A stretch of 64,000 bases of DNA from Cyanobium sp. FGCU6 (GTDB lineage Bacteria > Cyanobacteriota > Cyanobacteriia > PCC-6307 > Cyanobiaceae), in contig JANWUR010000009.1 of NCBI GenBank assembly GCA_024958655.1, positions 62,001 to 126,000 on the forward strand, given 5' to 3'. Below, piece by piece: positions 7,396 through 12,407 of this stretch; the first letter of the stretch is position 1, and every line of letters starts with the position of its first letter. Position numbers and translations under genes: made by a program. The notes under the pieces were generated by a model, which ran no database searches, was not told the origin of the DNA, and worked only from the letters and a program-made list of their open reading frames with translations.

Positions 7396-8397
7396 ATGGT
7401 CGGGGACTGGCTGCCGCCCGCCCTCAACGGCGGCTGGATCTATCGCGACCGGATCCCCACCTCCTGGGATGGCGTGCGCGTCACGGCCTACTACGCCAGC
7501 TGCTACAGCCATTCGCCTCCCGGGGCCTGGGCACGGCGCCTGATCGCCGGCGAGATCGAGCGCAACGGCCGGCCGCTGCGGCGAGATGTGGCACTGGCGC
7601 CGGGCGATCGCCTGGCCTGGCATCGGCCCCCCTGGCGGGAGGAGGCCGCTCCGTCCCTGCCCCAACCTCTGCTCGACGACGGCGACCTGCTGGTGCTCGA
7701 CAAGCCCTCCGGCCTGCCCGTCCTGCCGGCGGGAGGCTGGCTGGAGCACACCGCGCTGCGCCAGCTCGAACAGCGGCATACAGACGATCCCGCAGGCCTG
7801 CCGCGGCCGGTGCACCGCCTCGGCCGCTTCACCTCCGGTCTACTGGTCTGCGCCCGCAGGCCGGCGTCGCGGGCCTGGCTCAGCGCTCTGCTGCGCGAGA
7901 GCACGGGGGGCCGCGGCGACGGCGGCATCCCGGATGGGGGGAGCTGCCGCAAGCTATATCGCGCCCTCACGACCCCGCTCCCCTCCCACCGGCCCTTCGC
8001 GCTCGGAGAAGCGGTGCCGATCTGCGTGCCGATCGGCCGGCAGGCCCATCCCCTGCTCGGCAGCCTGTGGTGTGCGGCCGCTCCGGAGGATCCGCAGGCC
8101 ATGCCGGCGCACAGCACCCTCACCCTGCTGGAGTGCCGGCCGGAGGGCGCCCTGGTGGAGGTGGCCATTGCCAGCGGCCGTCCCCACCAGATCCGCATCC
8201 ACACCGCCGTCCTCGGGGCCCCGCTCCTGGGCGATCCCCTTTATCTCCCCGGGGGCCTGGCCCGGGGAGAGGCGCTGCCCGGGGAGGGCGGCTATCTCCT
8301 CCATGCCCACCGGCTCCGCCTGCCGCTGCCCCATGGGCGGGAGCTGGAGCTGGAGGCGCCCCTGCCGCTGCGGTTGCGGCGGCAGGGGGAGGGCTGA
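7396..8397 (+). CDS. RluA-like RNA pseudouridine synthase with a glycine at the catalytic aspartate position
   Basis: The protein (333 residues) has an N-terminal S4-like segment (RLIAGEIERNGRPLRRDVALAPGDRLAWH), the LLDDGDLLVLDKPSGLPVLP motif and the C-terminal GRPHQIRIHTAVLGAPLLGDPLY of RluA-type synthases, which turn specific uridines in rRNA or tRNA into pseudouridine. The catalytic motif normally reads HRLDRxTSG; here it is HRLGRFTSG, with Gly143 encoded by GGC at 7822-7824 in place of the nucleophilic aspartate. A one-base change (GAC) would restore the standard residue. I recall a similar glycine in some plant and cyanobacterial members, but I am not certain of it. Activity is therefore doubtful. 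Confidence 0.82.
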   Translation: MVGDWLPPALNGGWIYRDRIPTSWDGVRVTAYYASCYSHSPPGAWARRLIAGEIERNGRPLRRDVALAPGDRLAWHRPPWREEAAPSLPQPLLDDGDLLVLDKPSGLPVLPAGGWLEHTALRQLEQRHTDDPAGLPRPVHRLGRFTSGLLVCARRPASRAWLSALLRESTGGRGDGGIPDGGSCRKLYRALTTPLPSHRPFALGEAVPICVPIGRQAHPLLGSLWCAAAPEDPQAMPAHSTLTLLECRPEGALVEVAIASGRPHQIRIHTAVLGAPLLGDPLYLPGGLARGEALPGEGGYLLHAHRLRLPLPHGRELELEAPLPLRLRRQGEG

Positions 8398-8405
8398 GGC
8401 GCCAC

Positions 8406-10331
8406 TCAGGCCCTGCCGAGGATGTGGGCCGCGAGGATGTCGCGGTTCACGGCCAGGTTGGCGGGCACGAAGTAGGAGCCGTGGGCGCAGCCCAGGTCGT
8501 AGCCCCAGAGCCGCCGCGGGCAGCCCACCGGCACCAGTTCCGTGCAGTCCTTCTGCACGGGGAAGCGGCTGCGCAGGGGGCCGCCCACCAGGTCGCCGCG
8601 GGCATCGAGGTTGACCCAGTTCCGCACCAGGGCCGGGTAGGCAGCCCGCCGTCCCCCGTCGGGCCGGTTCTCGGGCCTCAGGCTGTCCTGCACCGGGCCG
8701 ATCGATAGGGCGCTGCCGATCGTGAACCAGTTCGCCACCTGCCCGGCCAGCCCCCCGTTCTCCAGTTCGCGCAGCCCCTCATAGGCCACCACCGTTCCCC
8801 AGCTGTGGGACATCACGTCCACCGTGGTGCCGCTGGCGAGCAGGGGGCGCACCACGTCGGTGAAGCGCTGGAGGATCTGGCGCCGCTTCTCCGGTACCGC
8901 CATGTAGAGGAGGAAATCATCGATCGCCAGGCCACCGCCCCTGGCGCCGGGGGGCGGGTCGGCCCCCGGACCGGCCTCCTGGGCCCGCCGGTCCTCGATC
9001 ACCGCTTCGATCTCCCGGCGCAGCCGCTCCACCTCCTCGGCCACCGCGGCATCCCGGCTGCCTTCGAGACCCCGGTTCACCAGGTCGCTCCAGGTCACCT
9101 CCCACCGGTCCACACCGAGCGTGCCCCGGCCATAGGTGGTCCCCACGTGGGGAGCCAGCGACGTCCACCAGCCCTGGGACCAGCCGGGCCGGTGGGTGCT
9201 GATGCCGTGCACGCACACCAGCACCCGCTCGCCGGAGCGGGCCCCGGCCTCCTTCGCGGTGCCGGCCGCTGCGGCGGCCGCCTCCCCCGTCTCCAGGGCC
9301 AGCACGGTGTCCAGCAGGTGGCGGTAGGCCTGGATCAGTTCGTGCTGGATCAGGCGGCGCCCGTCGCCGTCGTCTGCCGTCTGTGCAGCGGCGGCCGGCA
9401 GGCTCGGCGCGACGAGGAGATCGGCATCCTCAGGGGGCGTATCCTGCCGCCCACCCCGGCCCGCCCCGAAGATCGGCCCCCGCAGCGCGCCTCCCTCGTG
9501 CACGGGCACCTGCTCATAGCTTCCACGCAGCCTGGCGGCCACGGCCTCGATCAGCGGCCGGCTGTCCAGGTCGCGCTGCTGCCGCAGCACCGCACAGAGG
9601 GCGGCGGTGAAGGCACCCTGGAACCGGCCGTCCACATAGGCATCGGCAGCCGTCTGATCCTCACGGCAGGCCATCAGGTTGAGGTTGCGGGCCTCCCGCA
9701 GCCGGCTGGGACGCAACGTCGGGGCTGGCCCGGCCCCCCGCAATCCACCACCGGGCAGATCGGGGGGAGCCAGGTAGCGGGCGTTGGTCACCTGCTCTTC
9801 GGTCACCGTTTCACCGGAGGGCACGGAACGGGAGCGGGGACCGTCGACGAGCACCTGCCGCGTCCGGCCCTCGGCGTCGAGCACCGTCATCGCCCGACTG
9901 CTGCCGCCGGAATGGCAGGTGTCCTTGATCACGATCAGGCGGGCCGCTTCATTCACCCTCTGCACCCAGGCGAACCACTCGTCGTCGCTGAGATACGTGC
10001 CCGGATTGCCGAAGTCCATGTCGGCCAGGCAGGTGATCTCGTCGCGCCCGTCGCCGGTCTCGTCGCCGCTGAGGTCGGGCACGTTCGAGCCGTGGCCGGA
10101 GATGTGGAACACCAGGGTGTCACCGGCGCCGGCTCCGGCGGTGAGCCACTGCCATTCCCGCTGCAGGTTGGTCTTCACCACCTCGGCGTCCCGCAGCAGG
10201 TGGATGTCATCCGGACGGAAGCCGTAGGTCTCGAGCAGCAGACGCCGCAGGTTCTCGGCGTCATTGATGCAGCCCTTCAGCGGGGCGGTCGCATAGGCGT
10301 TGATGCCACAGAGAACGGCTTTGCGTGCCAT
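8406..10331 (-). CDS. Caspase-like (metacaspase, peptidase C14) protein fused to an alpha/beta-hydrolase domain
   Basis: A 641-residue two-domain protein. Residues 1-290 are a metacaspase-type peptidase: MARKAVLCGINAYATAPLKGCINDA, the catalytic histidine His80 in HISGHGS and the catalytic cysteine Cys139 in DTCHSGG. Residues about 369-641 look like a lipase/esterase-type alpha/beta hydrolase: VCVHGI near 373-377, nucleophile Ser510 in MSHSWGT, candidate Asp576 or Asp580, and His617 in GCAHGSY. An acidic/Ala-rich linker and a charged helical stretch (about 425-455) lie between. Metacaspases cleave after Arg or Lys and are linked to stress responses or cell death in cyanobacteria. No signal peptide is seen, so it is probably cytoplasmic. 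The ATG at 10331 is chosen because the caspase fold begins there. Confidence 0.88.
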   Translation of the reverse strand: MARKAVLCGINAYATAPLKGCINDAENLRRLLLETYGFRPDDIHLLRDAEVVKTNLQREWQWLTAGAGAGDTLVFHISGHGSNVPDLSGDETGDGRDEITCLADMDFGNPGTYLSDDEWFAWVQRVNEAARLIVIKDTCHSGGSSRAMTVLDAEGRTRQVLVDGPRSRSVPSGETVTEEQVTNARYLAPPDLPGGGLRGAGPAPTLRPSRLREARNLNLMACREDQTAADAYVDGRFQGAFTAALCAVLRQQRDLDSRPLIEAVAARLRGSYEQVPVHEGGALRGPIFGAGRGGRQDTPPEDADLLVAPSLPAAAAQTADDGDGRRLIQHELIQAYRHLLDTVLALETGEAAAAAAGTAKEAGARSGERVLVCVHGISTHRPGWSQGWWTSLAPHVGTTYGRGTLGVDRWEVTWSDLVNRGLEGSRDAAVAEEVERLRREIEAVIEDRRAQEAGPGADPPPGARGGGLAIDDFLLYMAVPEKRRQILQRFTDVVRPLLASGTTVDVMSHSWGTVVAYEGLRELENGGLAGQVANWFTIGSALSIGPVQDSLRPENRPDGGRRAAYPALVRNWVNLDARGDLVGGPLRSRFPVQKDCTELVPVGCPRRLWGYDLGCAHGSYFVPANLAVNRDILAAHILGRA

Positions 10332-10437: not shown

Positions 10438-11169
10438 TCAGCCGCGCTCGAAGGCGATCAGGCGTGAGAAGTAGAAGGGGGCCTGGTTGAGGCTGCGCCG
10501 CACCGGGCGGAACCCGCAGGAGGCGGCCGTCGCCACGATCCCCTCCTCGCGCAGGGTATAGGCGCGGGTGGTGCGGCTGGGGCCGGGGAACAGCTGGCCG
10601 ATGCTCTTGAGGATTGCCAACAGCGGCGTGTAGGGCGCGAAGCTCACGATCAGGTGGTGCTCGGCCAGGCCGGCCAGGTGCCGCACCATCTCCTCGGCGG
10701 CCGGCTGCGGGTAGTGGATGAAGACATCCAGGCAGATCACGGTGTCGAAGCGGCCCTGCAGGCTCTCGAGATCGGAGGCGCCGAAGCGCAGCCGCTCCGC
10801 CGGGATGCCCGCCTCCCGGGCCCGCCGTTCGGCCTCGCTCACCATCGCTTCGGAAAGATCGCTGGCCTCCACGGAGCCGGCGCCCATGGCCGCCAGTGGA
10901 ATCGCCAGGCTGCCCACGCCGCAGCCCGCATCGCAGAAGCTGCGGCCGGCCAGGTCGCCCTGCTCCTCCACCCAGTGCAGCACCTCGTCCACCGTCTTCT
11001 GGTGGCCGAGGCGAATGTTGCGCTGAACGTTGTTGACCTCGTCGCTGTCGCTGTAGATGCGCTTCCAGCGCTCGAAGCCGGTGCTTTCGAAGTAGCCCTT
11101 CACCTCGGCCTTCTCGGTCGCCTTCGGGCAGTCGGCCGGCGCGATGGACGGCTCCAGGTCGGCGGGCAT
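10438..11169 (-). CDS. chlM: Magnesium-protoporphyrin IX methyltransferase
   Basis: ChlM/BchM transfers a methyl group from S-adenosylmethionine to the propionate of Mg-protoporphyrin IX, an early committed step of chlorophyll synthesis. The 243-residue protein carries the family signature KGYFESTGFERWKRIYSD and VNNVQRNIRLGHQKTVDEVL, the SAM-binding loop FCDAGCGVGSLAIPL, and the C-terminal APFYFSRLIAFER. The ATG at 11169 gives the usual length. It lies downstream of nagA on the same strand with a gap of about 45 bp. Confidence 0.95.
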   Translation of the reverse strand: MPADLEPSIAPADCPKATEKAEVKGYFESTGFERWKRIYSDSDEVNNVQRNIRLGHQKTVDEVLHWVEEQGDLAGRSFCDAGCGVGSLAIPLAAMGAGSVEASDLSEAMVSEAERRAREAGIPAERLRFGASDLESLQGRFDTVICLDVFIHYPQPAAEEMVRHLAGLAEHHLIVSFAPYTPLLAILKSIGQLFPGPSRTTRAYTLREEGIVATAASCGFRPVRRSLNQAPFYFSRLIAFERG

Positions 11170-11213
11170 CGGGGCGGAACAGGTGGGGCGGATCCTAGGG
11201 GCGAGGCAGGGGC

Positions 11214-12407
11214 TCAGGCCGCCCGCTGCCAGCGCAGGCCGTCGGGTCCCTCCTGCCAACGCAGAAGCTCGCCCAGGGGGCGCCCCATCAGCAGGTCCGG
11301 CAGCGAGCGCCGCTCCCCCAGCACCCGCCGTGGCAGCACGGTGGCGGCGGCGATTGCACGGCCCGGCCTGCCGCTCCAGCGCGCCAGCCGCACCACGCCC
11401 TCCAGCAGCGGCAGGGTGACGCCGGCCAGGGTGCCGTCTTCCAGGCGGCAGCTGCCGCCCTGCACGATCAGGGGGCGCTGGTCCCAGCGGTGCATCCCCT
11501 CCGCCAGGCCGTAGGGGGCCAGGGCATCGCTGACGATCACCACCTGGTCGGGCGCCAGTCGCTGCAGCAGCACCGCCATGGTGGGCGCCACATGCACGCC
11601 GTCGGCGATCAGGCCGAGGGCCACGTCGCCGCGCAGGGCCGCCGCCGCCACCGGACCCGGGGCGCGGCGGTGCATATCGGGCATGGCGTTGAAGGCATGG
11701 GTCACCATCGCCACCCCGGAGGCATAGGCCTGGGCCGCCTGGGCTTCATCGGCGGCGCTGTGGCCCAGGCTCACCACCACGTTCCGCTCCCGCAGGGCTG
11801 CGATCACCGCATCAGCCCCCCCCAGCTCCGGCGCCAGGGTCATCAGGGCGATGTCGGCGTCCGGGCCGCCGCGGAAGCCGCCGATCCGCTCCTCCAGCGC
11901 CGCCGGGTCTGGAGCCGCCAGGTGCTCCAGAGGATGGGCCCCCCGCCGCTCCGGCGCCAGGAACGGTCCCTCCAGATGGGCGCCCAGCAGCCGGCAGCGC
12001 CCGGGGCGGTGCTCCGCCCGGGCCACGGCCAGCACGTCCAGGGCCTGGCGCAGCGGCGCCACCGCACAGGTCACCAGGGTGGGACAGATCGCCTCGACCC
12101 CGTCGTCCCAGAGCAGGGCCAGCAGCTCCCGCAGCCGCGGCAGGTCGCCGGGCACCAGTTCGGGGAAGGCCAGGCCGAGTCCGCCGTTGATCTGCAGATC
12201 CACCCCCGCCGGTGAGAGCCAGTCGCCGCGCCAGTCTTCGCCGGAGGCGTGGCTGCCCGCCGGGATCGGGTCCACGGCGGCCACGTGACCGTCGTCGTCG
12301 AGGCCCAGGCGCCAGCGCCGGCCGCCGCCAGGGCCGGCGGGTTCAGGTTCGGGCAGACGGACGTTGCGGAGCCAGCGCACGGCAGCAGGCGGCGGGGAGG
12401 GGACCAT
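11214..12407 (-). CDS. nagA: N-acetylglucosamine-6-phosphate deacetylase
   Basis: NagA removes the acetyl group from GlcNAc-6-phosphate, feeding amino-sugar recycling. The amidohydrolase metal-site motifs are present: [40 protein letters not shown] and the catalytic aspartate in [10 protein letters not shown]. Length is 397 residues. It starts 30 bp from the divergent purE gene, so the two share a short promoter region. No nagB is nearby in the window. Confidence 0.93.

Follow-up and report, generated by a model that had tools for sequence, protein, structure and literature searches.

Here, we show that a gene of the freshwater picocyanobacterium Cyanobium sp. FGCU6 encodes, in one chain, what its sequence identifies as a type-I-like metacaspase with an intact His80/Cys139 dyad, followed by what alignment and a structural model identify as a serine alpha/beta-hydrolase with the predicted triad Ser510-Asp580-His617. 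We tentatively interpret the protein as a caspase-gated pro-hydrolase that serves as an effector in cell suicide or defence, a reading to which we give a little less than an even chance. In our judgement, that the caspase controls the hydrolase is evenly balanced, and an outcome of cell death or defence is somewhat less probable than either.

Two catalytic domains in one reading frame

The fusion gene lies on the minus strand of the window (the whole 64,000-nucleotide stretch analysed), running from position 10331 to its stop codon at 8406-8408 (8406..10331), and forms a single open frame of 641 codons plus the stop, with no internal stops. Its 5' neighbour, about 107 bases away on the same strand, is a methyltransferase-like gene (10438-11259), and a pseudouridine-synthase-like gene on the plus strand (7396-8397) converges with it, both identities being taken from the reading of the open reading frames. 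The window copy is solitary and flanked by housekeeping genes, and the same reading revealed no sensor or defence gene adjoining it. The source assembly (4.07 Mb) holds one second metacaspase match, which lacks the hydrolase (L002). By its sequence, the fusion is not an assembly artefact or a product of chance, because full-length fusions occur in 14 other genomes. Elsewhere in the window, inspection by eye only suggested the end of a carrier-protein/thioesterase protein of NRPS/PKS-like type (74-1168), followed on the opposite strand by a PIN-like toxin frame (1355-1750).

The metacaspase domain spans residues 1-290 (9462..10331, minus strand). Residues 3-280 match the Pfam family Peptidase C14 (PF00656) at E 1.6e-24 and 87.3 bits, against a curated cut-off of 21.4, and their closest PDB sequences are of yeast-type metacaspase-1 (E 8.5e-28). 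Fold comparison (VIA) of model residues 1-294 with metacaspases 1, 4 and 9 gave Z scores of 20.8-28, with rmsd 2.1-5.0 over 195-242 residues. The catalytic dyad named in the first-pass annotation was found at the very positions given and is conserved in the alignment: His80 (SGHGS; 10092..10094, minus strand) is invariant across the fusions except in one apparently dead planctomycete copy (L134), and Cys139 (DTCHSGG; 9915..9917, minus strand) is invariant.

The C-terminal domain comprises residues 369-641 (8409..9227, minus strand) and was recognised from its topology in the model, from our hydrolase profile (A3) and from weak similarity to Abhydrolase_6, DUF900 and LCAT. The AlphaFold model of the fusion, built on a 37-row alignment, has a mean pLDDT of 82.5 and a pTM of 0.50, which leaves the relative placement of the two domains uncertain; an earlier model from four sequences was poor (pLDDT 44.6). 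The structure prediction that the first-pass annotation had called for has, beyond residue 369, its strands and helices arranged in the order typical of an alpha/beta-hydrolase (strands 369-374, 409-412, 503-509, 531-538, 569-577 and 594-599), with Ser510 directly after strand 503-509, Asp580 after 569-577 and His617 after 594-599. The HGI oxyanion-hole motif (His375-Gly376; 9204..9209, minus strand), the nucleophile Ser510 in SHSWGT (8802..8804, minus strand), the catalytic acid Asp580 (8592..8594, minus strand) and the catalytic histidine His617 in CAHGSYF (8481..8483, minus strand) are invariant in 18 of 18 aligned domains, which descend to 27% identity and come from Cyanobacteria, Planctomycetota, Chloroflexota and Cloacimonadota. 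Asp580 is invariant in all hydrolase rows, and Ser510 in all but the dead copy. The annotation had left the acid as either Asp576 or Asp580; Ser510 and His617 stand as it proposed, and because the Asp576 position is N, H or Y in relatives, Asp580 is the predicted acid. Its description of one protein with two intact-looking sites thus agrees with the conserved catalytic residues and the single 641-residue frame.

No Pfam family matched the C-terminal part above its cut-off, and the remainder after the caspase falls in no curated family; the best match was Abhydrolase_6 (E 0.063, 14.4 bits against a cut-off of 26.3). Matches of the hydrolase family to the DUF900, LCAT, Abhydrolase_6 and Tle3 phospholipase models are likewise weak; they indicate a lipase/esterase type but no particular substrate. 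The fold search with the whole model mostly gave matches to the caspase half; among the matches listed, the only alpha/beta-hydrolase at E <1e-3 was a phage protein (E 1.3e-5).

Between the two domains lies a poorly conserved linker of low pLDDT (residues 291-368; 9228..9461, minus strand), within which the model places a helix (323-354) that the alignment shows to be kept in the solo hydrolases of Nostocales. Comparison of one pair of fusions (L070/L071) gave dN/dS values of 0.25 for the caspase, 0.29 for the hydrolase and 1.25 for the linker. In this pair, both domains are under purifying selection and the linker is not, and we regard it as nearly certain that both active sites are kept by selection. 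The first-pass annotation had also looked for cleavage sites in the Arg-rich middle; the SRSV and LREAR segments (residues 167-213) were rejected, as they are unconserved and sit inside the caspase p20-p10 loop, and the conserved candidate is instead Arg464 in the cap loop of the hydrolase.

Distribution of the fusion and exchange of its peptidase partner

A search for the same domain order elsewhere, which had been proposed from the window alone, recovered the 14 further full-length fusions. Related loci were retrieved with an alignment of the C-terminal domain as the query; the window protein alone as query retrieved none. The fusion is carried by six Cyanobium-group genomes (the window included), by Nostoc sp. 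LEGE 12450 and by eight planctomycetes (L082, L083, L129-L132, L134 and L219), and there were no relatives among the viral contigs searched. Within the genus of the window it is patchy (5 of at least 40 genomes), one carrier being a MAG named Cyanobium sp. (L070, genome G024); a review (PMC7475262) gives Cyanobium and Prochlorococcus as lacking caspase-domain proteins. In the caspase tree, the cyanobacterial fusions except L005 form one group with full support. Judged from these sequences, the fusion is old and maintained. The planctomycete copy L134 (G991) is dead at both sites, with His80 changed to Cys in the caspase, and HG changed to PD and Ser510 to Gly in the hydrolase; it has lost Arg464 too, and is possibly a joint pseudoenzyme.

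Hydrolases without a caspase record the loss of one partner and the arrival of others. The solo genes of Nostocales open with MPxPQQENQxRNGSI, a stretch that corresponds in the alignment to the caspase end (QIPQHEGQVRNGPIF in L078), and the match continues upstream through stop codons; these genes have therefore lost a caspase. They also nest beside fused forms in the tree. In L150, L151, L074 and L076, fossils of the caspase end were seen both ahead of the solo hydrolase gene and at its beginning. A gene for an S8 subtilisin lies upstream of the solo hydrolase in L074 and L151, an M4 gene overlaps it on the other strand in L077, and two Nostocaceae (L075, L231) have a member of the close hydrolase family joined in one protein to an M4 thermolysin-type peptidase. 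Additionally, many proteins of the Cyanobium group and some from planctomycetes have a distant branch of the hydrolase (profile E about 1e-11 to 1e-15) in their N-terminal part, joined to an S8 subtilisin. These S8 fusions, of 730-870 residues, include L040, L042, L045, L047 and similar proteins in the Cyanobium group, L135 and L136 in planctomycetes, and L068, L093 and L094. The distant hydrolase occurs in 15 genomes of the genus of the window, none of which carries the caspase fusion, a lack of overlap (hypergeometric 0.08) from which we claim no mutual exclusion of the two.

Other peptidases occur beside the family as well. On an Agrobacterium conjugative plasmid (L217, 5500-8001), a distant hydrolase is followed 12 bases on by a trypsin/TPR-S gene, and the pair adjoins a DEAD/DEAH helicase. 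Genes for S41 and M6 peptidases precede a solo hydrolase in the planctomycete L081, and an S41 gene lies downstream of the fusion in L174. The hydrolase can also work alone, because hydrolases with no nearby peptidase exist (L080, L086). In one planctomycete (L139), a distant relative was read in one frame with an apparent metallophosphatase domain. As far as gene arrangement tells, the protease partner of this hydrolase family is exchangeable.

The neighbours of the family in other genomes point to conflict systems. Specifically, in L158 and L154 a large protein with DUF7379/LCAT hydrolase segments, CHAT and TPR-S is followed by a TPR-S protein and then by the fusion. With this arrangement (G106/L158), G106 further has a MoxR-type AAA gene, TIR-FGE proteins and a TIR-VMAP-C protein within about 15 kb, together with a second metacaspase, the VMAP-C/MoxR-type AAA/TIR system being about 13 kb from the fusion. 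Three genes follow one another on one strand in the planctomycete L168 (6223-11423): one for an S8 subtilisin, one for an MBL protein of the LmuA/Avs1a/RTasMBL kind (E 5e-34) and the caspase-hydrolase fusion. By reading, a hydrolase lies beside apparent type I restriction genes and a patatin in L165, and CHAT, caspase, amidase and hydrolase genes lie beside contractile-injection-like genes in the Chloroflexi locus L084 (727-12785). The solo hydrolase of L150 is near STAND and CHAT genes, and Streptomyces relatives (profile A3 E 3e-11 to 7e-14) are beside AAA ATPase or NACHT genes. A second kind of neighbour leaves open a reading in terms of lipid oxidation: in Nostoc LEGE 12450, the fusion has a RoxA-like cytochrome c and a catalase/animal-type haem peroxidase protein beside it; in the planctomycete G1011, a P450, a catalase-like protein and likewise a RoxA-like cytochrome c are near it; and L155 and L076 have DyP-type peroxidases upstream. 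Haem-enzyme genes recur near the caspase-hydrolase gene in L078 (1-4423; Nostoc) and L169 (287-12756; planctomycete).

Arg464 and the proposed control of the hydrolase

Two cap helices of the hydrolase are joined by a variable loop (residues 454-470) that is modelled with low confidence, appears disordered and holds the candidate caspase cut site, Arg464 (8940..8942, minus strand). Arg464, in alignment column 694, is the sole strongly conserved residue of this otherwise variable loop, and is R in 14 of 14 caspase-linked fusions, those with a caspase at present or in the recent past. The remaining rows carry S, A, L, L, A, G, R, P, P, R, P, N, K and L plus one gap, which is R in 2 of 14. The association with caspase presence has a Fisher p of 6e-6, a value that ignores kinship among related rows. 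Most relatives that lack a caspase have another residue at this position, as has the doubly dead L134, and the Arg was lost in separate lineages: in the solo clade of planctomycetes, in L133 and L134, among the solo genes of Nostocales and in the M4 fusions. In the Nostocales solo genes IER has become IEP, although L076 keeps R without a caspase and some solo hydrolases keep an Arg four residues before the position; the M4 fusions read LES in L075 and, by eye, IEH in L231. Contexts in the fusions include GAR|GGG, ATR|GFL, VAR|GSA, TSR|GVA, IIR|GVL and GTR|AVL, among others, and a planctomycete fusion found later (L219, close to L131) has GTR|AVL as well. The alignment of this low-complexity loop is uncertain, and the related sequences are not independent.

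Orthocaspases and other prokaryotic caspase homologues cleave C-terminal to positively charged residues, according to PMC6426788, and a second source describes the same preference (PMC7935541). Because of this specificity, Arg464 would look like an activation site or an inhibitory pseudo-substrate site. The N-terminal metacaspase would be expected to cut after basic residues, and the lipase/esterase-like serine hydrolase may be held in check by the disordered loop between its two cap helices. Stress or infection would trigger the caspase, which would then cut after Arg464, in cis or in a neighbouring copy; the cut might free or reshape the hydrolase active site, and the freed enzyme could attack membrane lipids or another ester and so kill or arrest the cell. 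That the protease controls the hydrolase had been proposed by the first-pass annotation, and we find it the best reading in view of the covariation of Arg464, the swapping of partners and the joint decay in L134. Counting against it are the Arg464 that L076 keeps and the earlier Arg of some solo Nostocales genes, the housekeeping surroundings of the window copy in a genome that gave no VMAP-C match, and the hydrolases that occur away from any peptidase.

It is also conceivable, if unlikely, that the two halves are independent destructive enzymes with bulk substrates of their own, the fusion only ensuring their joint production and placement, with no control by cleavage. The two intact sites, the neutral, flexible linker and the occurrence of the hydrolase without a caspase are all in line with this, as is the combined-weapon interpretation given to a caspase-GDSL lipase-amidase protein of Chitinophaga pinensis (Asplund-Samuelsson 2012, PMC3501461); however, such independence predicts neither the covariation of Arg464 with the caspase nor the repeated swap to other peptidases. 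Control might instead run in reverse, with the hydrolase producing or erasing a signal (a small ester, an acyl or lipid compound, or a protein acyl group) that switches a caspase effector. Caspases are the usual effectors of conflict systems (PMC7159879), and the STAND and CHAT genes near the solo hydrolase of L150 and the NACHT and AAA ATPase genes beside distant hydrolases could be taken in this sense, but in Nostocales it is the caspase, not the hydrolase, that was lost or exchanged, suggesting that the hydrolase is the constant, working part of the pair; we consider reverse control distinctly improbable.

The haem-enzyme loci listed above (Nostoc LEGE 12450, G1011, L155 and L076, with haem peroxidase, catalase-like, P450, RoxA-like and DyP genes) would suit an oxidised-lipid pathway, with the hydrolase supplying haem oxygenases with fatty acids and being regulated by the caspase during oxidative stress. 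We give this reading a low probability, as such neighbours occur in a minority of loci and none adjoins the window gene. We attach an equally small likelihood to a protein that serves in housekeeping or development instead of killing the cell, its hydrolase being a peptidase, a thioesterase or some other esterase that acts on substrates other than lipids. The solitary position between methyltransferase-like and pseudouridine-synthase-like genes and a hydrolase family with no assigned substrate are compatible with such a role, whereas the patchy distribution within the genus and the conflict-gene context in other genomes argue against it.

Relation to known systems and biological meaning

The pairing of a caspase with an alpha/beta-hydrolase is already known from neighbouring genes: VMAP caspases always neighbour an alpha/beta-hydrolase gene, which was read as the two working together (Kaur et al. 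2020, PMC7159879), and such hydrolases were later described as acting on membrane lipids (PMC8195603). The fusion resembles the VMAP ternary conflict systems in this partnership, here within one protein, but differs in that those systems hold caspase and hydrolase as separate genes with vWA, MoxR and VMAP, none of which accompanies the window fusion. The genome of the window gave no VMAP-C (PF20028) match, and a scan of 30 cyanobacterial VMAP loci revealed no caspase motif. Activation by proteolysis has been described for a pro-nuclease that a caspase cleaves (Tuck et al., PMC12799240); in the Canu and Hachiman/AVAST nuclease-protease pairs, the protease cuts an insertion that blocks the active site of the proenzyme, and several protease families are used. 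There the effector is an MBL nuclease, whereas here it is an alpha/beta-hydrolase, and fused. The reading of open frames revealed no MBL pro-nuclease gene adjoining the window fusion, and among its relatives only L168 has one adjacent.

Type I metacaspases and orthocaspases such as yeast Mca1 and Microcystis MaOC1 share the C14 fold, the His-Cys dyad and a p10-like end with QTAADA, but have other partner domains or none, and the surveys searched made no mention of an alpha/beta-hydrolase as a partner of cyanobacterial caspases. The Chitinophaga pinensis protein likewise joins a caspase homologue to a lipase-type enzyme, although the GDSL (SGNH) lipase has another fold and the protein is a single case with a peptidoglycan amidase as well. 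EACC1-associated caspases (Kaur 2020) are alike in placing the caspase N-terminal to a variable C-terminal effector; the window fusion, however, scores 37.4 bits against their model NF047832, below its cut-off of 140. As far as the literature searched shows, the single-chain fusion, the covarying candidate cut site Arg464 and the swapping of peptidases are new.

A broader generalisation, which we put forward with more doubt than the reading of the window protein itself, is a class of protease-gated alpha/beta-hydrolase effectors parallel to the nuclease-protease pairs. One family locked by its cap loop would be served by interchangeable proteases (caspase, thermolysin, subtilisin, trypsin), and the window protein would be its single-chain form, cut at Arg464. 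If caspase gating is true, a single bacterial protein would combine a caspase with its own membrane-attacking executioner, the cut site being predicted to the residue, in a parallel to the animal caspases that release death-dealing enzymes. The principle of protease-activated effectors, known for nucleases and gasdermins, would then extend to lipid or ester hydrolases, and picocyanobacteria would hold an easily testable switch for death or defence.
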